64,000 bases of DNA from Natronosalvus amylolyticus (GTDB taxonomy: Archaea; Halobacteriota; Halobacteria; Halobacteriales; Natrialbaceae): NCBI RefSeq assembly GCF_024298845.1, contig NZ_CP101156.1, positions 1,116,001 through 1,180,000 on the forward strand, given 5' to 3'. The notes under the pieces were generated by a model, which saw nothing but the letters and a program-made list of their open reading frames with translations, was not told the origin of the DNA and ran no database searches. A program made the translations under genes and the position numbers. This document shows, piece after piece, positions 39,108-51,122 of this stretch (positions within the stretch are counted from its first letter, which is position 1; every line of letters starts with the position of its first letter).

Positions 39108-40373
39108 ATGAGCGACAAACCACACCAGAACTTGGCCATTATCGGCCACGTCGACCACGGAAAGAGTACGCTGGTCGGACGCCTCCTGTTCGAGACAGGA
39201 AGCGTACCGGAGCACGTTATCGAACAGCACCGACAGGAAGCCGAAGAGAAAGGCAAAGGCGGATTCGAGTTCGCCTACGTCATGGACAATCTCGCCGAAG
39301 AGCGAGAGCGCGGTGTCACCATCGACATCGCCCACCAGGAGTTCGACACGGACAAATACTACTTCACCATCGTCGACTGTCCTGGTCACCGTGACTTCGT
39401 CAAGAACATGATCACGGGCGCATCCCAGGCGGACAACGCCGTCCTCGTCGTCGCCGCAGACGACGGTGTCGCGCCCCAGACCCAGGAGCACGTTTTCCTG
39501 GCCCGAACGCTCGGTATCAACGAGCTGCTCATCGGCGTTAACAAGATGGACGTCGTCGACTACTCCGAGGACACCTACAAGGAAGTCGTCGAAGAGGTCA
39601 ACCAGCTCCTCAACCAGGTCCAGTTCCAGGTTTCGGACGACTCGTTCATCCCGATTTCGGCTTTCGAGGGCGACAACATCGCCGAAGCCTCCGACAACAC
39701 GCCGTGGTACGACGGCCGTACCCTGCTCGAGTCCCTGAACGACCTGCCAGAGACCGAGGAGCCATCCGACGCGCCCCTCCGTCTCCCCATTCAGGACGTT
39801 TACACCATCTCCGGTATCGGTACCGTCCCCGTTGGACGCCTCGAGACCGGAACGATGAACGTCGGCGACAACGTCTCCTTCCAGCCCAGCGACGTGGGCG
39901 GCGAAGTGAAGACGATCGAGATGCACCACGAAGAGGTCCCAAGCGCCGGCCCCGGTGACAACGTTGGTTTCAACGTCCGTGGCATCGGCAAAGACGACAT
40001 CCGCCGCGGTGACGTCTGTGGCCCAGCCGACGACCCACCAAGCGTCGCCGAGACGTTCCAGGCTCAGATCATCGTCATGCAGCACCCATCGGTCATCACC
40101 GCTGGCTACACGCCGGTCTTCCACGCTCACACGAGCCAGGTTGCCTGTACGATCGAATCCATCGACAAGAAGATGGACCCCTCGAGCGGCGAAGTCGCCG
40201 AGGAGAACCCCGACTTCATCCAGTCGGGTGACGCTGCTGTGGTCACCATCCGCCCACAGAAGCCACTCAGCATCGAGCCAGCAAGCGAGATCCCAGAACT
40301 CGGGAGCTTCGCCATCCGTGACATGGGCCAGACCATCGCGGCAGGCAAAGTCCTGAGCGTCGACGAGAAATAA
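39108..40373 (+). CDS. tef1: Translation elongation factor EF-1 alpha
   Basis: A 421-residue GTPase that brings aminoacyl-tRNA to the ribosome. G1 is GHVDHGKST (13-21), G3 DCPGH and G4 NKMD, followed by the two beta-barrel domains. Length and sequence match archaeal aEF-1A. The gene for ribosomal protein S10 follows immediately (stop TAA then ATG), the usual archaeal arrangement. A 573-residue open frame on the other strand is a composition shadow. Confidence 0.97.
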
Positions 40374-40682
40374 ATGCAGCAGGCACGCGTTCGACTCGCG
40401 GGCACCAACCCCAACGATCTGGACGACATCTGTGCGGACGTCCGCGAGATTGCGAACAACACCGGCGTCAACCTCAGCGGTCCGATTCCGCTGCCAACCA
40501 AGACGCTCGAGGTGCCAGCGCGAAAATCTCCAGACGGCGAAGGTACCGCCACGTGGGAGCACTGGGAAATGCGCGTCCACAAGCGCCTGATCGATCTGGA
40601 CGCCGACGAACGCGCACTCCGACAGCTCATGCGTATCCAGGTGCCAAACGACGTGTCGATCGAGATCGTCCTCGAAGACTGA
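40374..40682 (+). CDS. rpsJ: 30S ribosomal protein S10
   Basis: A 102-residue ribosomal protein S10 (uS10), starting [20 protein letters not shown]. It binds 16S rRNA in the head of the small subunit. The loop [19 protein letters not shown] and [12 protein letters not shown] are diagnostic. The ATG directly follows the EF-1 alpha stop, so the two are one transcript. Confidence 0.97.
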
Positions 40683-40912
40683 AACGGACCGTTTTCTCGC
40701 TTTCCAAACGGTATGCCAGAGCGGCCACCGTTGGAGAGCGTATAACTGGCCCGTTGAGGACGTGACTGACATCGTTTCGGTACATTTTCACGACGCCAAG
40801 ACCGTGAGCGACACGCTTCTCGAGTAAGTCGGCTCGATACAACTGTCTCGATACAGCCGTCTCGCGTGCACCCACGATACAGACTTTAGTGTTCGCTCGC
40901 CAAGGGTGACAT

Positions 40913-41542
40913 ATGGGTACAGATTCGCCCAGCCCGCTGCTCGAGACCCTCGGGCTGTTCGCGATCGTTTTCGTTCTCCAGCAAGTAGCCGCACTGTTCA
41001 GCCTGGCACTTATGGCTGGCCTGTTCGTGCTTGCACCCCCCCTCGAGTCCAATCCGTGGACGATCGTGACCAGCGTCTACGCACACGGCAACCTCGGGCA
41101 TCTGCTTTCGAACAGTTTCGGACTCCTCCTCTTCGGCTGGCCGATCGCACGGGCGACGACTCGAGGCCGATTCCACGTATTTTTCGTACTCACCGGTTCA
41201 CTGGCCGGCATCTCGCAGGTGCTTGTCACCGGTGCCATGGCCTCGTTGACCGGCGGCTCCGGATCAGCCGTGTTGGGTGCCAGTGGAGCGGTCTTCGCGT
41301 TGATGGGGTATCTCATCGCCGGGAACCGTGTTTCTGACGGACTCGCCGCTCGAGTCGACGTGCCGCTCTGGCTCACGCTGGTCGTTTTCGTGGTATTGGC
41401 GGCCGCGATTACGATTGCGACAGGTTCCCCTGGGGTTGCCCTGATAGCGCACTTTACCGGCTTCTTGCTCGGGTTGCTTGCCGGACGGCTAGGCGTGCTC
41501 GAGCCCAGGGCTACGGCGCGTCCCCGCCAGTCTGCGGTTTGA
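40913..41542 (+). CDS. Rhomboid-family intramembrane serine protease
   Basis: A 209-residue membrane protein with six predicted helices. The catalytic Ser is S124 in LGASGAVFAL and the His is H180 in IAHFTGFLLG; HGNLGHLLSN (58-67) supplies the oxyanion-side residues. These proteases cut transmembrane segments of other proteins. The length is at the short end for the family, with no extra soluble domain. The gene stands alone between rpsJ and the tRNA gene. Confidence 0.92.
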   Translation: MGTDSPSPLLETLGLFAIVFVLQQVAALFSLALMAGLFVLAPPLESNPWTIVTSVYAHGNLGHLLSNSFGLLLFGWPIARATTRGRFHVFFVLTGSLAGISQVLVTGAMASLTGGSGSAVLGASGAVFALMGYLIAGNRVSDGLAARVDVPLWLTLVVFVVLAAAITIATGSPGVALIAHFTGFLLGLLAGRLGVLEPRATARPRQSAV

Positions 41543-42280: not shown

Positions 42281-42526
42281 CTACCGACTCTTCGAGCGAC
42301 TCGACCAGTACATCGGGATCAACAGCACCAGAAAGACTGTCCCCATCGCAGCGATAGCAATCCAGATGGTCGCGATAATCCGTTCGTCGAGATAGCCGGC
42401 GACCTCGAGGACCCACATGAGGCTATAGAGGCTGACGACGACCACAACCGTGATGTACACCCTGAATAAGAGGCCGGTAAGGTGGTACAGAAGCGTTTTC
42501 GACGGAATGAACTGTTCGTATCTCAT
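42281..42526 (-). CDS. Two-helix membrane protein, unknown function
   Basis: An 81-residue protein with two hydrophobic segments (about 18-44 and 49-73), a short N-terminus MRYEQFIPSKT and a basic C-terminus ending SRSKSR. No family is recognised. Its ATG overlaps the stop of a 43-residue one-helix gene (ATGA), so the two are probably made together. Partners in a small membrane complex are possible, for example accessory subunits of a respiratory enzyme, but nothing in the sequence shows which. Confidence 0.65.
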   Translation of the reverse strand: MRYEQFIPSKTLLYHLTGLLFRVYITVVVVVSLYSLMWVLEVAGYLDERIIATIWIAIAAMGTVFLVLLIPMYWSSRSKSR

Positions 42527-42654
42527 TGATAAAACGTGAAGTCGGCAGTTATCAGGACGGTTCCAACGACCGAAATGAGGACGATAATCGTGGCCAGGAC
42601 GACGATCAACCAGGCCACCGGGGATAACTCAGTACTGACGGTCGAGAAACTCAT
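42523..42654 (-). CDS. Single-helix membrane microprotein, 43 residues
   Basis: ATG 42654 starts MSFSTVSTELSPVAW, followed by an uninterrupted hydrophobic helix of about 22 residues and ITADFTFYQ. Its TGA overlaps the ATG of the 81-residue membrane protein gene. The helix, acidic-neutral flanks and overlap favour a real gene, although it is very short. Confidence 0.6.
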   Translation of the reverse strand: MSFSTVSTELSPVAWLIVVLATIIVLISVVGTVLITADFTFYQ

Positions 42655-42778: not shown

Positions 42779-42940
42779 ATGACCACGAGTTACACCTGCG
42801 TGTGTGGGGCAACACTGACCTACCGACAGGACCTCGAGCGCGAGGACAGAGGCACGTCACAGCAGTGGTTCTGTGGGGCTTGCCGGACACCGGTCCCCGG
42901 AATCGTCGCGGAGCGAATTAGCCATCAGCATCCGTCCTGA
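42779..42940 (+). CDS. Zinc-finger microprotein, 53 residues
   Basis: The product starts MTTSYTCVCGATLTYR and contains CVCG at 7-10 and CGAC at 32-35, a spacing typical of the small zinc-ribbon 'mu-proteins' of haloarchaea. The four cysteines could hold one zinc. It lies 93 bases upstream of the RqcH gene on the same strand. Known relatives are regulators or have unknown roles; none is assigned here. Confidence 0.65.
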   Translation: MTTSYTCVCGATLTYRQDLEREDRGTSQQWFCGACRTPVPGIVAERISHQHPS

Positions 42941-43033
42941 ACGTCGTTGGCTACACACGATCCTCGAGATGCGGAGCGTGGGCGTGCGTTCCAGAGCGAC
43001 ACGTCTTTCCCACCGGGGACGGCAGTGTGTGAT

Positions 43034-45208
43034 ATGAGTGGCGAGCCCAAAACGGAACTGACGAGCGTCGATCTCGCCGCCTTCGTCACGGAGTTTGGAA
43101 CCTACGAAGGTGCGAAAGTCGACAAAGCCTATCTGTATGGCGATGACCTGCTGCGACTGAAGATGCGCGATTTCGACCGCGGCCGACTCGAGTTGATCCT
43201 CGAAGTCGGCGAGAAAAAGCGGGCACACACGTTGTCACCCGAACGGGTGCCCGACGCACCGGGTCGGCCACCGCAGTTCGCGATGATGTTGCGAAACCGA
43301 CTGTCCGGCGCGGATTTCGTCGGCGTCGAACAGTACGAGTTCGACCGCATCCTCGAGTTCGCGTTCGATCGTGACGACGGGGTGACGCGGATTATCGTCG
43401 AGTTGTTCGGGCAGGGCAACGTCGCGGTGACCGATGCCGAGTACGAGGTCATCGACTGCCTCGAGACGGTTCGGTTGAAATCCAGAACTGTCGTACCGGG
43501 GTCGCGATACGAGTTCCCCGAGTCGCGTCTCAACCCGTTGACGGTCACACGGGAGGCGTTCGAGCACCAGATGAACGATTCGGATACGGACGTCGTTCGG
43601 ACCCTGGCGACCCAGTTGAACTTCGGCGGGTTGTACGCCGAAGAGCTGTGTACGCGAGCCGGCGTGGAGAAAACCCTTGCAATCGAGGACGCGGACGAAA
43701 CCGTCTACAGTCGTCTGTACGAAGCGATCGAGCGGTTGGCACTCGATATTCGGAACGGGAATTTCGAACCGCGGGTGTACCTCGAGGACGATGAGAATAA
43801 TTCGGAGTCAGAGGACGAGGGGGACGAAAGCGCCACAGCGGGCCAAACGGAGACGGACCGAGTCATCGACGTCACCCCGTTCCCACTCGAGGAACACGTC
43901 GAACTGGCGGGTGAGCCTTACGAGTCGTTCCTCGAAGCGCTCGAGGAGTACTTCTTCCGGCTGGAACTGGACGCCGACGAGCCGGATCCCCGGGAGCAGC
44001 GTCCCGATTTTGAAGCACAGATCGCCAAACACCAGCGAATCATCGACCAGCAGGAGGGAGCGATTTCGGGATTCGACGAGCAGGCACAGGCCGAACGTGA
44101 GAAGGCCGAGTTGCTGTACGCGAATTATGGCACCGTCGACGAACTCCTGTCGACGGTTCGGTCGGCTCGCGAGGACGGTGTCCCCTGGGGAGAGATTGCC
44201 GGTCGACTGGAGGAGGCAAAAGAATCCGGACTCGACGCGGCCAAGCCGTTTGTCGATATCAACGGCAAGGAAGGGACGGTGACGATTCGCCTCGAGGGAG
44301 AGCCGATCACGCTGGTCGTCGATGACGGGGTCGAGAAGAACGCTGACCGCCTGTACACCGAAGCGAAACGTATCGCGGAAAAAAAGGAGGGAGCACTCGC
44401 GGCGATCGAAGATACACGAGAGCAACTCGAGGAAATCAAACGGCGTCGGGACGCGTGGGAAGCCGATGGTGGCGACGACGATGCCGACGGTGAGGAAGAC
44501 GAGGACGAACCGCGTGATTGGCTGGCGGAGCCGTCAGTTCCCGTTCGAAAGAACGAGCAGTGGTACGAGCGATTCCGCTGGTTCCGGACGAGCGACGACT
44601 ATCTCGTCATCGGCGGTCGTAACGCCGATCAGAACGAGGAACTCGTCAAGAAGTACCTCGAACGAGGCGACCGCGTGCTCCACACACAGGCCCACGGTGG
44701 TCCGGTCACGGTGCTCAAGGCGACGGACCCGAGCGAAGCGTCCTCGAGCGATATCGAAATTCCCGACTCGAGCGTCGAGGAAGCGGCACAGTTTGCGGTC
44801 TCGTATTCGTCCGTCTGGAAGGACGGCCGCTATGCTGGTGACGTCTACATGGTGGACTCCGACCAGGTATCGAAAACGCCCGAAAGCGGCGAGTACCTCG
44901 AGAAGGGTGGGTTCGCCGTTCGCGGTGATCGGCGCTATCTCGACGACACCCCGGTCGGCGTCACCGTCGGGATTCAGTGTGAGCCGTATACGCGAGTCAT
45001 CGGTGGGCCACCGTCAGCTATCGAGGACCGGGCGGTGACGACGATTCGCGTCGAGCCGGGCCGTTTTGCCCAGGCTGACGCCGCAAAACGGATCTATCGG
45101 GAGTTACGCCAGCGCTTTGCCGACGAGTCGTTCGTCCGGAAAATCGCCAGCCCCGATCAGATCGCTCACTTCCTGCCGCCGGGTGGGAGCCGTTTGGTCG
45201 AGGAGTAA
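43034..45208 (+). CDS. rqcH: Ribosome rescue factor RqcH (NFACT family)
   Basis: A 724-residue NFACT protein. The N-terminal NFACT-N domain includes QFAMMLRNRLSGA and the D104-R105 pair (YEFDRILEF), which contacts tRNA in RqcH/NEMF. Coiled-coil arms (about 310-500) follow, then the NFACT-R domain (about 515-625: WFRTSDDYLVIGGRNADQNE, HTQAHGGPV) and a C-terminal domain. RqcH binds stalled large ribosomal subunits and adds C-terminal alanine tails that mark the nascent chain for degradation. ATG 43034 is chosen because the upstream in-frame extension is unlike the family. A poly-acidic insert (about 260-275) looks like a loop. Confidence 0.93.
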   Translation: MSGEPKTELTSVDLAAFVTEFGTYEGAKVDKAYLYGDDLLRLKMRDFDRGRLELILEVGEKKRAHTLSPERVPDAPGRPPQFAMMLRNRLSGADFVGVEQYEFDRILEFAFDRDDGVTRIIVELFGQGNVAVTDAEYEVIDCLETVRLKSRTVVPGSRYEFPESRLNPLTVTREAFEHQMNDSDTDVVRTLATQLNFGGLYAEELCTRAGVEKTLAIEDADETVYSRLYEAIERLALDIRNGNFEPRVYLEDDENNSESEDEGDESATAGQTETDRVIDVTPFPLEEHVELAGEPYESFLEALEEYFFRLELDADEPDPREQRPDFEAQIAKHQRIIDQQEGAISGFDEQAQAEREKAELLYANYGTVDELLSTVRSAREDGVPWGEIAGRLEEAKESGLDAAKPFVDINGKEGTVTIRLEGEPITLVVDDGVEKNADRLYTEAKRIAEKKEGALAAIEDTREQLEEIKRRRDAWEADGGDDDADGEEDEDEPRDWLAEPSVPVRKNEQWYERFRWFRTSDDYLVIGGRNADQNEELVKKYLERGDRVLHTQAHGGPVTVLKATDPSEASSSDIEIPDSSVEEAAQFAVSYSSVWKDGRYAGDVYMVDSDQVSKTPESGEYLEKGGFAVRGDRRYLDDTPVGVTVGIQCEPYTRVIGGPPSAIEDRAVTTIRVEPGRFAQADAAKRIYRELRQRFADESFVRKIASPDQIAHFLPPGGSRLVEE

Positions 45209-45393
45209 CGCTCGAGAACTCGACCATTTTGGAAGACAGAGGGGATCGATACTCCCCCGTGTCATACCCGAGGCCGTCGATACCACGGAACAGTGTACCG
45301 AAACCGTTCTCCGGCGATTCCCTCGACCATTGGCAAGCATCGACTAGGAAGAAGCGAACACTAATACGGGATTGTACGTAATTTGCTACCAGT

Positions 45394-45609
45394 ATGCAAG
45401 CCACCGCTGCTCTCGAGGCATCCGGACTCCCCGCCCCTGAGATGGTACCGGAACAGACGTTCACACAGCTGTCACCGAACGCCATGGTTGCCATCGCACT
45501 GCTGGTTACCGTAGCGTTGGTCGTGATTATCGCTATCTTGCTGTATTTCTCATTTGCCGTCGAACAGGATGTCGGTCCGGAGGAGCCACTCGAGGAGTCC
45601 GAACACTGA
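45394..45609 (+). CDS. Single-helix membrane protein, 71 residues
   Basis: One hydrophobic helix (about 30-53) sits between a short N-terminal segment and an acidic cytoplasmic or external tail (QDVGPEEPLEESEH). No family is recognised. It lies between RqcH and pelota on the same strand. Composition supports coding; function is unknown. Confidence 0.55.
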   Translation: MQATAALEASGLPAPEMVPEQTFTQLSPNAMVAIALLVTVALVVIIAILLYFSFAVEQDVGPEEPLEESEH

Positions 45610-45875
45610 TACAGTCGGTTGGGACTCTCTCCCGATGATCGGCCACCCGGTATAGCGATCACCGGGGAGAAACGATAACCGACCGTCTGAGAGCCGCGTC
45701 AAACGTTGAGTTGGCAGCCGAATCGATAGGTTCGGCTCACCTGTCGACGGATGTGCGGTACTGGGTTGGAGACGTTCCGAACCATGTCACGGGTGTGCCC
45801 CAAAAGCCCAGATCGACCGCGCTCGGTGACGAGCGATTCGTCACGCACTTACCAGCCCCGACCGATGTTGCAGCC

Positions 45876-46943
45876 ATGCAGATTACAGACCGGGAGCAAC
45901 TCGAGGGCGGGCGCGAACGCGTCACGCTCGTCCCCGAGAGCGTTGACGACCTCTGGCACCTCCAGTACGTCCTCGAGCCCGGCGACCGCGTTGCGGGTGA
46001 CACCACGCGTCGCATTCAGCGCAACGACGAACAGATGCGTGATACGGGGGGCGAACGGGAACACATGTGGGTCGCCATCGCCGTGGACGACGTCGAGTTC
46101 CACAAGTTTGCCAACCGGTTACGAGTCGGGGGCGAGATCGTCGCCTGCTCGCGGGAAGACCAACTCGGCTTTCATCACACCCTTAACGTCGAGGTTCGCG
46201 AGGAGATTTCGATCGACAAACGATTCAAACCCGATCAGAACGCGCGCCTCGAGGAAGCCGTCGAGTCGACGGAGAATCCGGACGTCGCCATCGCGACGGT
46301 CGAGGAAGGGGAGGCACACGTCCACACCGTCGCCCAGTACGGCACCGAATCGCGGGCGACGATCACCGGCCCGACCGGCAAAGGCGAGTACGCACAGGAC
46401 CGCTCTGAACTGTTCGCCGACCTCGGGGCCGTCCTCTCGCGTCTCGAAGTGGACGCGATCATCCTCGCTGGTCCCGGCTTCACCAAACAAGACGCGCTGA
46501 AGTACCTCGAGCGGAACTATCCCGACGTTGCCTCCCTGGTAACGATGGTCGATACCGCGAGTGTCGGTGATCGAGGCGTCCACGAAGTGCTCAAACGCGG
46601 TGCGGTCGCCGACGTACAAGAGCGGACTCGCATCGAGTCCGAAGCCGAGTACATCGATGAACTCACCAGGCGTATTGCTGCGGGTGCAAAGGCGGCCTAC
46701 GGCCCCAAAGACGTCGCGCAGGCAGCCGAGTACGGAGCCATCGAGCGGTTACTCGTTCTGGACGAAACCCTCCGTCAGGAACGCGGCCCGGACCGAGAGT
46801 GGTCGATCGACGTCGACGACGTGGTCCGAACGACCGAACAGAAAGGTGGCGACGTGACAGTTTTCTCGAGTGAGTTTCCGCCCGGCGAGCAGCTGTCGAA
46901 CCTGGGTGGGATTGCGGCGTTGTTGCGATATCGTCTCGAGTAG
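45876..46943 (+). CDS. pelA: mRNA surveillance protein pelota
   Basis: A 355-residue pelota (Dom34): an N-terminal Sm-like domain ([23 protein letters not shown]), a central domain without the GGQ of release factors ([21 protein letters not shown] falls in it), and a C-terminal domain ([24 protein letters not shown]). Pelota splits ribosomes stalled on broken or empty messages. ATG 45876 begins MQITDREQ, as expected; the longer frame upstream is not pelota-like. It lies about 670 bases downstream of rqcH on the same strand. Confidence 0.93.
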
Positions 46944-46953
46944 CGGGCCCGCG

Positions 46954-47811
46954 CTACATATACTCGCTGATGCCCACCGTGTACTCGGCGATGGCTACGA
47001 GTACGAGCGTGCCGACCATCAGCAGGGTTCCGATTGCAGCGATTTGTTGCGGTGGCGTGTTAAAAAAGAGGTTGAACAGCCGCAACGGGAGAGTTTGGCT
47101 CTGGGGGCCGGCCAGAAAGAGCGAAACGATATACTGGTTGAACGATAGCACAAACGCGAACATCGCGCCACTGACCAGTCCCGGTTTCACTAGTGGCAGC
47201 GTAATGTATCGGAACGTTTCGACTTCGGTTGCACCCAGATCCTGTGCGGCTTCCTCAAGCGTGTGATCGAAGTTCTGGAGGCTTGCAGTCGTCGTCCGGA
47301 TCGTAAACGGCAGCGTGATGATCACGTGACCGAGTAATAGTGTCCAGAAGGACAGTGGAATCTGAACCCCGAGATCCGTCCGGATGCGGCCGATGACGAG
47401 CAAGATAGCGAAACCGACGAGCATCCACGGATAGATCAGCGGCGACAGAAAGAGAGTTTCAAGCGTCGCCGACGACTCAAGGTCGGATCGAACGAGCCCG
47501 AACGCTGCGAGCCCGCCGATGGCTGTCGCGATGATAGCCGTTGCAATTGCAACCTGGAGGCTGGTCGTCAGCGCGTCTCCTAGGCCCAGATAGCCGACCG
47601 CTTCGGGGATTTCGGTATACCACTCGAGCGAGTACTGTTCCGGGGGCCAACCGCCGTATGGCGTCTCCTGAAACGAGATGACGACGACGATCAGCAGCGG
47701 CGCGAGCAAGAACGCGATGATGCTGTAGACTAGAGCTCGGTAACAAACTGTAGCAACCTGTGACCCGATGGTCGTAAGCCGGTCCCAGTGAGGGCGAACA
47801 TCGGTACTCAT
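46954..47811 (-). CDS. ABC transporter permease, PotC type
   Basis: A 285-residue permease with six helices and an EAA loop LEEAAQDLGATEVETFRYI. It resembles PotC of spermidine/putrescine importers and forms a channel with the PotB-type protein. Its start overlaps the stop of that gene by four bases. It is the last gene of a minus-strand operon and is convergent with pelA, 10 bases away. Confidence 0.88.
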   Translation of the reverse strand: MSTDVRPHWDRLTTIGSQVATVCYRALVYSIIAFLLAPLLIVVVISFQETPYGGWPPEQYSLEWYTEIPEAVGYLGLGDALTTSLQVAIATAIIATAIGGLAAFGLVRSDLESSATLETLFLSPLIYPWMLVGFAILLVIGRIRTDLGVQIPLSFWTLLLGHVIITLPFTIRTTTASLQNFDHTLEEAAQDLGATEVETFRYITLPLVKPGLVSGAMFAFVLSFNQYIVSLFLAGPQSQTLPLRLFNLFFNTPPQQIAAIGTLLMVGTLVLVAIAEYTVGISEYM

Positions 47812-48722
47812 GCGACGCCCTCCACGATGTGTTTACGGACGTGATGGTAAGCGACGATGATGACGATAGCGACAACGATCAAGATGATCGACAGCGCGCT
47901 CGCAAACGGCCAATTGTTTGAGCCGGTGATGAGCGAGGTAATGATCGTCGGAAGCACTTCGATTCGGCCACCGAGGATCGCGGGGGTGACGTACGCGGCC
48001 ATCGTGAGTAAAAACGCCATAAGTAAGCCTGCTGCAATTCCTGGGAGTGCAAGCGGGAAGATGATCGTTCGGAAGACGGTTAGACGGTTTGCGCCGAGAT
48101 CGCGGGCGGCCTCTTCGAGTGAAGGTGGAATCGTGTGTAACACATTGACAATAGGGAAGACGACGAACGGGAGGATTACGTGAGTCATGCCGATGATTAT
48201 CGAGAGTTCGTTGTAGAGCAGTTGCGGGGCCGTTTCTTCGGTGAACAGCGGCGTGGCAACCAGCGCTGACTGGACAAGTCCGCCGGTCGACAAGAGGGCA
48301 TACCAGCCGAACGATCGAATCACGAGATCGATCGTCAGCGGTGCGAATGCACTCAAGACGATTATGCGGCCGAGGAGTCCACCCTTCCTGACGGCCGTGT
48401 ACGCGAGCGGAAACGCGAGGAGAAACGAGAACACCGTAACGGCGACGGCGATCCGGACGGTTCGAATCGTTACGTTCAGATACAGCGAAATAGAGCCGAT
48501 TCGCCGGTAATTGTCGAGCGTGAATCCGTTGCCGATAGCGCCGTCTTCGAACGGAAGGAAGCTGTAACGGATCAACAATAGTGCCGGAACGACCATCAGC
48601 AAAAACACGGTGAGGAGCGCAGGCCCGAGCATAAGTGTCGAGCCAAGGCGCGTCTCGCCGTGTGTTCTGATGAACGACGAGAGTCGATCAGACAGCGTCG
48701 AAAGCAGTGAGTTTGCAGTCAT
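47808..48722 (-). CDS. ABC transporter permease, PotB type
   Basis: A 304-residue permease with six helices; the EAA loop is LEEAARDLGANRLTVFRTI. It pairs with the PotC-type permease. ATG 48722 is preferred because the in-frame extension (to 48761) is cysteine/arginine-rich and overlaps the ATPase gene. It is separated from the ATPase stop by two bases. Confidence 0.88.
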   Translation of the reverse strand: MTANSLLSTLSDRLSSFIRTHGETRLGSTLMLGPALLTVFLLMVVPALLLIRYSFLPFEDGAIGNGFTLDNYRRIGSISLYLNVTIRTVRIAVAVTVFSFLLAFPLAYTAVRKGGLLGRIIVLSAFAPLTIDLVIRSFGWYALLSTGGLVQSALVATPLFTEETAPQLLYNELSIIIGMTHVILPFVVFPIVNVLHTIPPSLEEAARDLGANRLTVFRTIIFPLALPGIAAGLLMAFLLTMAAYVTPAILGGRIEVLPTIITSLITGSNNWPFASALSIILIVVAIVIIVAYHHVRKHIVEGVA

Positions 48723-48724
48723 GG

Positions 48725-49786
48725 TCAGGCGTCGACGACACGGGTGTTTGCTGCACTCCAACTCATGGTAACGCGGTCACCAGTCTCGTACCTACTATCG
48801 GTCGAATTCGTTTCGACGATGTACTCCGTATCGTCCACGGTAACGAAGTACCGTATCATCGAACCGACGAAGTGAACCTGAGAGACCGTCGCCTCGAGGG
48901 TGTTTTCGCCCGTCACATTGCCCGGTTCGGAAATAGCAATGTTCTCCGGTCGCACGAACGCGGTACTGTTCGTTCCAGGAAGCGATGCGACGTCGGTCCC
49001 GAAAGTCTGTCCGTGTGCCTCGAGGAAGACGCTCCCGTTACGGGACGTGAACGTGCCGTCGATAAAGTTCGTATCGCCGATAAAATCCGCAACGAATCGC
49101 GTTTTTGGTCGGTCATACAGCGCTTCAGGCGGACCCAGTTGTTCGATTTCCCCGTTGTTCATCACGGCGACTCGGTCAGCCATGGTAAGCGCCTCGTCCT
49201 GGTTGTGTGTGACGTACAGCGTGGTGATCCCAAGTTCACGCTGGAGACGGGAGAAATCGACTTTAATCCGGTCGCGCAGCTTTTTATCGAGCGCTCCGAG
49301 CGGTTCGTCCATCAGGAGGACTTTCGGTTCCGGTGCGAGCGCACGGGCAGTCGCGACTCGTTGTTGTTGGCCGCCCGAGAGCGTTGCCGTGTTTCGATCT
49401 CTAAGTCCACCGAGATCGACGAGATCTAGTACCTCGTCGATACGACTATCTATCGCGTCGGCGCTATCGCCGCGACGTTTGAGGCCGAACGCGATGTTTT
49501 CGCCGACAGTCATGTGCGGAAAGAGCGCATAGTCCTGAAAAACCATCGTCGTATCCCGTTTGTGCGGCGGGACATCGTTGAGTGACCGGCCATCCAGGGT
49601 GATACGGCCAGTCGTAGGGGTATCGAACCCCGCGAGCATCCGGAGTGTGGTTGATTTGCCCGATCCCGACGGTCCGACAAGGGCGAGAAATTCACCGTCA
49701 GCTATCGAAAACGATACGTCGTCGACGGCCCTCGTATCACCATACGTTTTCGTGATATTTTGAAATTGAATCAGGTCGGAAGACAT
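48725..49786 (-). CDS. ABC transporter ATPase, PotA type
   Basis: A 353-residue ATPase with Walker A GPSGSGKST, signature LSGGQQQRVATARAL, Walker B LLMDEPLGALD, the switch His in YVTHNQ and a C-terminal TOBE-like regulatory domain (about 245-350). It drives the PotB/PotC permeases. Start ATG 49786 (MSSDLIQF) is normal; the upstream extension is not PotA-like. Divergent from the lipoprotein gene at 49956, so the two share a promoter region. Confidence 0.9.
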   Translation of the reverse strand: MSSDLIQFQNITKTYGDTRAVDDVSFSIADGEFLALVGPSGSGKSTTLRMLAGFDTPTTGRITLDGRSLNDVPPHKRDTTMVFQDYALFPHMTVGENIAFGLKRRGDSADAIDSRIDEVLDLVDLGGLRDRNTATLSGGQQQRVATARALAPEPKVLLMDEPLGALDKKLRDRIKVDFSRLQRELGITTLYVTHNQDEALTMADRVAVMNNGEIEQLGPPEALYDRPKTRFVADFIGDTNFIDGTFTSRNGSVFLEAHGQTFGTDVASLPGTNSTAFVRPENIAISEPGNVTGENTLEATVSQVHFVGSMIRYFVTVDDTEYIVETNSTDSRYETGDRVTMSWSAANTRVVDA

Positions 49787-49955
49787 ATTTCGTCGATTGA
49801 GTCGAATTGGCCATCCCGTCGTAATAAGTATATCGGCATTGTCGGACTGTAGGCCAAAATAATGCTTTTGCTTGAACTGTATCCGTAACAATATAGTTTT
49901 ACTGAACCACAACCAGAATATCTATATAGGTTGGAATATGATTGAGCTGTAGAGT
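49787..49955. promoter_or_regulatory. Divergent promoter region of the Pot-like importer
   Basis: This AT-rich region separates the ATPase operon from the lipoprotein gene. TCTATATAG (49921-49929) lies about 31 bases before the lipoprotein ATG, and AATAAGTATAT (49823-49833) could serve the other strand. A regulator such as the Lrp-family protein nearby might act here (inference). Confidence 0.45.
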
Positions 49956-51122
49956 ATGGCAGACGATACCAGAATGCAACGTCGAACGGTGCTGCGTGCA
50001 GCTGGTGGCATGGCCACTGCCGGCATGGTCGGCGTCTCTGGCTGTCTCGGTGGCAGCGACGACGACGACGGAAATGGAAACGGCAACGGGAATGGTGACG
50101 GAAACGGAAGCGGAAACGGTGACGACCTACCCGATTTTGGCGGCGAATCGCTTCACGTAATGCTTAATGCGGGTGCGCTGGCCGAGCATCAACGACAGAA
50201 CGTGATTCCTCGGGTTGAAGAAAAATACAACCTGGAGATCAACGACGAACAGTCGACGACGGGGGCGATGATCACGGCTATTCAGTCGAATCCCGAAAAC
50301 CCACCGGACGTCATCGACGTTAACGTGAACGGCATCTTTCAGGCCCACCGCAACGACTGGCTGGCCTCGTTTGCCGACCACACGGATATTCTCACCAATT
50401 ACGAACACATCTACGACGAGGCGAAGTATTACGACGACCACGGCGTAAGCTGGTACTTCGGCGAGTTATCACCGGTCATCAACACCGATCACTGGGATGA
50501 GATTCCGACCTCCTGGGAGGAGGTCATCGAGCGTGCAGACAACATCGCGATGGCACCGTTCGCCTGGACGCAGGGTGAGTTTCTCTTGCTGGCGAGTTCA
50601 ATCGCAACGGGTGAACCGTACGACGCCGCCGAACCGGACGTTGACGCCGGATTCGAGTGGATGGAAGAACACATCAAGCCCAAGCACACTCACACCATCG
50701 AAGGCATCGCGCAGGCGAATCAACTGCTGACCAGCGGGGAAGCCGACGTATTGCTTCCGGCGTGGGACATCTGGGTCACCGACCTCTACCTCCGTGGGAC
50801 GCCGATTCGTCCCGTTCGTCGACCCGATCCCGTGGGAATCGCTGCCCACCAGGGCGTCGCGGTTCCTGAAGCCGGGAACGTCGAGCCGGCGATGGCTTAC
50901 GTCAACGAACTGCTCTCGCTCGAGTCCCAGGAAGAACATCCGGGAATCGTCGGTACGGGGCAGACCCATCGAGACGCCACGCTTCCCGAGGATATTCAGG
51001 AGTTCGGCGCGCCAACCATCGACGACGTTCGCGATGGAAGCCTGAAAATCCCGAACTACGAGTTCATGTGGCAAAACCAGGACGGCTGGAGCGAACAGTG
51101 GAATCAGATCTTCGCCGAATAA
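49956..51122 (+). CDS. Pot-type substrate-binding lipoprotein
   Basis: A 388-residue solute-binding protein of the spermidine/putrescine (PotD/family 1) type. Tat motif QRRTVLRA, lipobox VSGC with C30, then a Gly/Asn linker (about 39-54) encoded by a GGNAAC-like repeat. The body has SWYFGELSPVINTDHW and a closing PNYEFMWQNQDGWSEQWNQI. It supplies the permeases encoded on the other strand. Polyamine, amino acid or related amine is plausible; unproven. Confidence 0.88.
   Translation: MADDTRMQRRTVLRAAGGMATAGMVGVSGCLGGSDDDDGNGNGNGNGDGNGSGNGDDLPDFGGESLHVMLNAGALAEHQRQNVIPRVEEKYNLEINDEQSTTGAMITAIQSNPENPPDVIDVNVNGIFQAHRNDWLASFADHTDILTNYEHIYDEAKYYDDHGVSWYFGELSPVINTDHWDEIPTSWEEVIERADNIAMAPFAWTQGEFLLLASSIATGEPYDAAEPDVDAGFEWMEEHIKPKHTHTIEGIAQANQLLTSGEADVLLPAWDIWVTDLYLRGTPIRPVRRPDPVGIAAHQGVAVPEAGNVEPAMAYVNELLSLESQEEHPGIVGTGQTHRDATLPEDIQEFGAPTIDDVRDGSLKIPNYEFMWQNQDGWSEQWNQIFAE

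Follow-up and report, generated by a model that had tools for sequence, protein, structure and literature searches.

An old rqcH–pelA gene pair in Natrialbaceae with a recurrent, predicted one-helix membrane protein and an incidental zinc-finger neighbour

The window, by which we mean the whole 64,000-nucleotide stretch of Natronosalvus amylolyticus DNA analysed here, carries four genes on the + strand, all of whose open reading frames were confirmed. A zinc-finger-like C4 microprotein of 53 aa with a CxCG...CxxC arrangement and the C-terminus HQHPS (42779..42940) is followed after 93 nt by rqcH, encoding a 724 aa member of the archaeal RqcH/NEMF family (43034..45208). A 71 aa one-helix membrane protein (45394..45609) lies 185 nt further on, and after another 266 nt comes pelA, encoding an archaeal pelota/Dom34 protein of 355 aa (45876..46943). 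The first-pass annotation had placed the two ribosome-rescue genes 670 bases apart on one strand, with the zinc-finger gene before rqcH and the one-helix gene between rqcH and pelA; this description holds, the measured rqcH–pelA spacer being 667 nt. The nearest named relative found for the window was Natronosalvus hydrolyticus (94% identity for RqcH).

Other genes flank these four. Upstream of the zinc-finger gene, the - strand carries two ORFs for small membrane proteins of 81 and 43 aa (42281-42654), which among 81 searched loci were present only in the window and N. hydrolyticus. Further upstream (39108-41542) are an EF-1-alpha-like ORF and a small ribosomal-protein-like ORF, both recognized by eye, and a rhomboid protease, the gene for which is about 6 kb from rqcH in N. 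hydrolyticus. An ABC transporter cluster follows pelA (46954-51122); it includes a PotC-like permease on the - strand, and visual inspection adds another permease, an ATPase and a substrate-binding protein.

Both rescue factors are full-length proteins that score above the curated cut-offs for archaeal RqcH and pelota and have the expected domains. RqcH reached 808.5 bits against NF041120 (equivalog cut-off 400) and contains PF05833 and PF05670, so that both NFACT-N and NFACT-R were found; its start is best placed at the ATG at 43034, the mechanically called ORF beginning at a TTG at 42947. When RqcH was aligned to solved NEMF, the FDRIL stretch paired with VDRIV, retaining the DR pair of the NFACT-N domain that has a role in tRNA binding. 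A further trait of the RqcH family is the extension of nascent chains on the large subunit by C-terminal tails. PelA, which is best started at the ATG at 45876, scored 294.8 bits against TIGR00111 (equivalog cut-off 177.65) and comprises three eRF1-type domains (PF03463, PF03464 and PF03465), with GGQ absent from its translation. By comparison with known RqcH and pelota the proteins are ordinary, and variation is limited to the spacing of the genes and the gene between them. In one otherwise near-complete genome (G057:C2:363827-365982) rqcH is broken into two open frames, by a frameshift or a sequencing error.

All three spacers contain a promoter-like element on the + strand. The element before rqcH (CGACACGTCTTT, 42997..43008) lies in the spacer after the zinc-finger gene and fits a pattern present in 30 of 33 rqcH upstream regions and in 0.35% of background stretches, and the pelA element (ACTTAC, 45847..45852) fits a pattern that 25 of 33 pelA upstream regions carry at -28 to -30, against 0.36% of background. 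Since these patterns were read off the very sequences counted, many of them closely related, the counts are only descriptive. The exception is the set of 13 held-out upstream regions for the one-helix gene, whose element (AACACTAAT, 45357..45365) belongs to a pattern seen in 20 of the 22 regions that defined it and 7 of the 13 held out, compared with approximately 1.4-1.9% of background. With rqcH, pelA and the helix gene each preceded by such an element, one four-gene transcript is unlikely, and the locus would be better described as a neighbourhood than as an operon. Separate promoters, which we infer from these patterns, would also explain how genes could enter the rqcH–pelA gap.

The pairing of rqcH with pelA is real and much older than the host lineage. 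A phylum sample of 156 genomes, in which the positions of both genes were classed by script, included 126 from outside the haloarchaeal families (f1-f6). In 59 of these 126, pelA follows rqcH on the same strand and the ends of the two profile matches are under 300 bp apart. The genes fall on different contigs in 41, and 12 genomes are missing from one gene table; of the 73 with both genes on one contig, 63 show linkage within 2 kb. The linkage was not seen in several families of the phylum sample (f10, f11 and f21). The literature that was accessible in our search yielded no report of an rqcH–pelA gene pair in archaea.

Within the 30 haloarchaeal genomes of this sample the two genes are within 300 bp of each other in five and within 10 kb in 14 more; in six they are widely separated or oppositely oriented, and in five they fall on different contigs. 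Among Natrialbaceae, 97 of 120 genomes have pelA within 20 kb after rqcH in the same orientation, across gaps of 72 bp to 17.6 kb. Only two Natronosalvus genomes, that of the window (G000) and G113, keep the pair together in one orientation: the genes are more than 60 kb apart in G111, G112, G114 and G117, lie 9.6 kb apart on opposite strands in G115, and rqcH was not found in G116, an incomplete genome. The variable gap, the loss of linkage in some species of the genus and the separate promoter-like elements of rqcH and pelA are what would be expected if haloarchaeal closeness were residual ancestral synteny without present function. We regard this explanation as tentative and rather less than even in probability, because in a 55-locus subset the families recurring near rqcH were led by pelA (34 loci, same-stranded in all 34) and an elp3-like gene (33 loci), far in excess of the next commonest family (16 loci).

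In 81 of 119 Natrialbaceae the elp3 gene (TIGR01211), of a tRNA wobble-modifying enzyme family, precedes rqcH at up to 20 kb in the same orientation; in the window genome it is detached and lies 326 kb from rqcH. This proximity hints at a possible connection of ribosome rescue with tRNA modification.

The zinc-finger microprotein is a conserved gene in its own right. It is 96% identical in N. hydrolyticus, its ORF looks coding, and relatives occur in 110 of 125 Natrialbaceae (111 with one weak match) as well as in other families of the order, with matches in 44 of 116 sampled genomes (17 of the 44 being Natrialbaceae). The protein fell below every Pfam and NCBIfam cut-off, and its cysteines C7, C9, C32 and C35 do not vary among 20 sequences. 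Modelled alone, it gave a two-strand hairpin (mean pLDDT 82); the best match of this model in the PDB was no lower than E=0.68, and a profile search of solved structures returned nothing under E=0.57. Haloarchaeal C(P)XCG zinc-finger micro-proteins are known from Haloferax volcanii (PMC11241148, PMC10716476 and PMC6562870), and the window protein resembles them, as they are described in the accessible parts of these papers, in being a single domain of <70 aa that combines a CxCG motif with a further pair of cysteines. It differs from them, on the same partial descriptions, in that CxxC and a following R stand in place of CPXCG at its second motif: its motifs are CVCG and CGACR, whereas the second pair is mostly CxxCG in its relatives.

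This gene adjoins rqcH in only three of the 107 genomes in which both could be placed (G000, G113 and G117), all within the Natronosalvus lineage; in the other comparable genomes the two are on different contigs (54) or far apart (50). Around 21 other copies there was no common neighbour and no context shared with rqcH or pelA. The commonest neighbour at these 21 loci was an ABC-ATPase-like family (nine loci, at varied distances and strands), followed by another family at five. Given the rarity of rqcH adjacency and the lack of a common neighbour, the zinc-finger gene is a stand-alone gene and an incidental neighbour of rqcH, outside any unit.

These data bear on the first-pass suggestion of a quality-control unit, of which the rqcH–pelA link stands and the four-gene version does not. 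The first-pass annotation had named a differing order or missing small genes in most relatives as grounds for refuting the unit, and a survey of the four-gene order detected it in just two of 125 genomes (G000 and G113). A dedicated operon for the zinc-finger protein, RqcH, the helix protein and PelA is consistent with the order shared by the window and N. hydrolyticus (L002), but we consider it exceedingly improbable, as the zinc finger is so seldom at rqcH, its other loci lack a rescue context, the helix gene is at the locus in a minority of genomes (see below), rqcH and pelA are separated or inverted in the other members of the genus where both could be placed, and promoter-like elements lie within all three spacers. 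A single operon was rejected on gene order and these promoter-bearing spacers.

The one-helix protein likewise fell below every Pfam and NCBIfam cut-off, and a plain BLAST search found it only in the window genome and G113. Its ORF looks coding when compared with the N. hydrolyticus counterpart (dN 0.19, dS 0.73). For this one genome pair, the helix segment (dN 0.03, dS 0.37, dN/dS ~0.09) is under strong purifying selection and the remainder evolves more freely (dN 0.31, dS 1.26); across the family the parts outside the helix are poorly conserved. The BLAST result suggested a Natronosalvus orphan, a reading overturned by an ORF scan, a family profile and a profile from which the genus was held out. 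Inspection of 20 other rqcH–pelA gaps revealed comparable one-helix ORFs at the corresponding position. When the region following rqcH was scanned systematically, 22 of 120 genomes had an ORF of this kind, and relaxed starts added two more (G009 and G010); as controls, the opposite strand gave 1 of 120 and shuffles gave 2 of 600. A 17-sequence profile built without Natronosalvus recovered the window protein at E=5.4e-6 among 9051 ORFs, and ranked the N. hydrolyticus counterpart and an ORF preceding pelA in G115 above all unrelated ORFs, the first clear stranger appearing at E=0.89. BLAST misses the family because of its fast divergence. A BLAST match in G099 (E=0.006, inside a 600-codon frame) was taken as chance, and the locus copy of that genome lies elsewhere. 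The ORF after rqcH in Natrinema hispanicum (L005:10208-10477) matched the family weakly (E=0.005), apparently via an acidic tail, and is possibly a decayed copy.

We searched 125 whole Natrialbaceae genomes with a profile from a 17-sequence alignment, counting as locus matches those that, in the same orientation, follow rqcH and/or precede pelA by up to 5 kb. The first-pass placement of a one-helix gene between rqcH and pelA proved recurrent: 34 of 125 genomes, from 13 of 29 genera, have the gene at the locus, and in most it is absent or unrecognized. At E<=1e-9 all 32 genome-wide matches were at the rqcH/pelA locus; at E<=1e-8 there were 34 at the locus and six elsewhere, 17 of the 34 being training sequences and, of the 17 outside the training set, five being closely related to trained sequences and 12 less closely. 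At E<=1e-4 there were 34 at the locus and 45 elsewhere, a relaxed comparison to be read knowing that short hydrophobic profiles may match through composition alone. In a sample of 116 genomes of the order only two matches fell outside Natrialbaceae, both at E ~8e-5, and no report on the family was found in the accessible literature. The helix protein is a recurrent occupant of the locus from a fast-diverging family hidden from BLAST.

Where rqcH and pelA have separated, the helix gene is found with pelA. It lies 120 bp before pelA in G122 although rqcH is 2.3 Mb distant, 212 bp before pelA in G115 and 59 bp before it in G116, and thus belongs more to the neighbourhood of pelA than to that of rqcH. 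This tight spacing (59-212 bp) could be mere hitch-hiking.

The profile matches elsewhere form a second, paralogous group, which sat in 19 of 20 fetched loci (L253-L272) beside a purC-like gene that we take from its translation to be PurC. These purC-adjacent proteins of Natrialbaceae share with the locus group the profile family, one helix, an acidic tail and a similar upstream element, and differ in their neighbour and in being a second copy in the same genome; the window genome carries one copy of each group, with the purC-side copy at G000:C1:1947826-1947978 (L267). The existence of this group indicates that ribosome rescue is not the sole business of the family, and argues against a family dedicated to the membrane-linked clearance of stalled chains with which the first-pass annotation had tentatively associated the locus.

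A role for the helix protein as a membrane-anchored rescue partner, recruiting PelA or RqcH to stalled ribosomes at the translocon or helping to clear stalled membrane-protein chains, would fit its position in the rqcH–pelA gap or immediately ahead of pelA, its persistence beside pelA after the rearrangements in G122, G115 and G116, and the strong constraint on its helix. We do not favour such a direct role and consider it unlikely, since paralogues are linked to purC and the gene is absent from or unrecognized at the locus in most genomes; its own promoter-like element and the poor conservation outside the helix also weigh against it. Because it is at the locus in just 34 of 125 genomes, any role would be dispensable. 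We think it reasonably probable instead, given the purC-side group, that this small membrane protein has its own function and moves together with pelA. A broader version of the rescue role, in which a haloarchaeal membrane-anchored family works with pelota at translocon-bound stalled ribosomes while its sister group tethers similarly beside purC, strikes us as speculative and quite improbable; if true, archaea would have a membrane-side branch of ribosome rescue.

Overall, we have good confidence in an account that combines an old rqcH–pelA pair, a separately promoted helix gene between its members and an incidental zinc finger. We infer the following order of events. An ancient pairing may have been loosened in haloarchaea by gene insertion, leaving between rqcH and pelA a separately promoted, fast-evolving one-helix membrane protein that would have been inherited at the locus across Natrialbaceae. 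The gene was presumably lost or became unrecognizable in most genomes, and seems to keep to pelA, not rqcH, once the pair separates.

In the rescue pathway as it is generally understood, ABCE1 and PelA separate the subunits of a stalled ribosome, after which RqcH takes over on the large subunit with its nascent chain still attached. The deep rqcH–pelA pairing suggests that both factors act in one archaeal pathway, in a domain where ribosome-associated quality control has been little studied. Our analysis also illustrates that an apparent orphan small protein can be assigned to a family by position where similarity search fails. Finally, the small membrane family at the rqcH–pelA locus offers a specific candidate accessory factor that could be deleted in haloarchaea amenable to culture.
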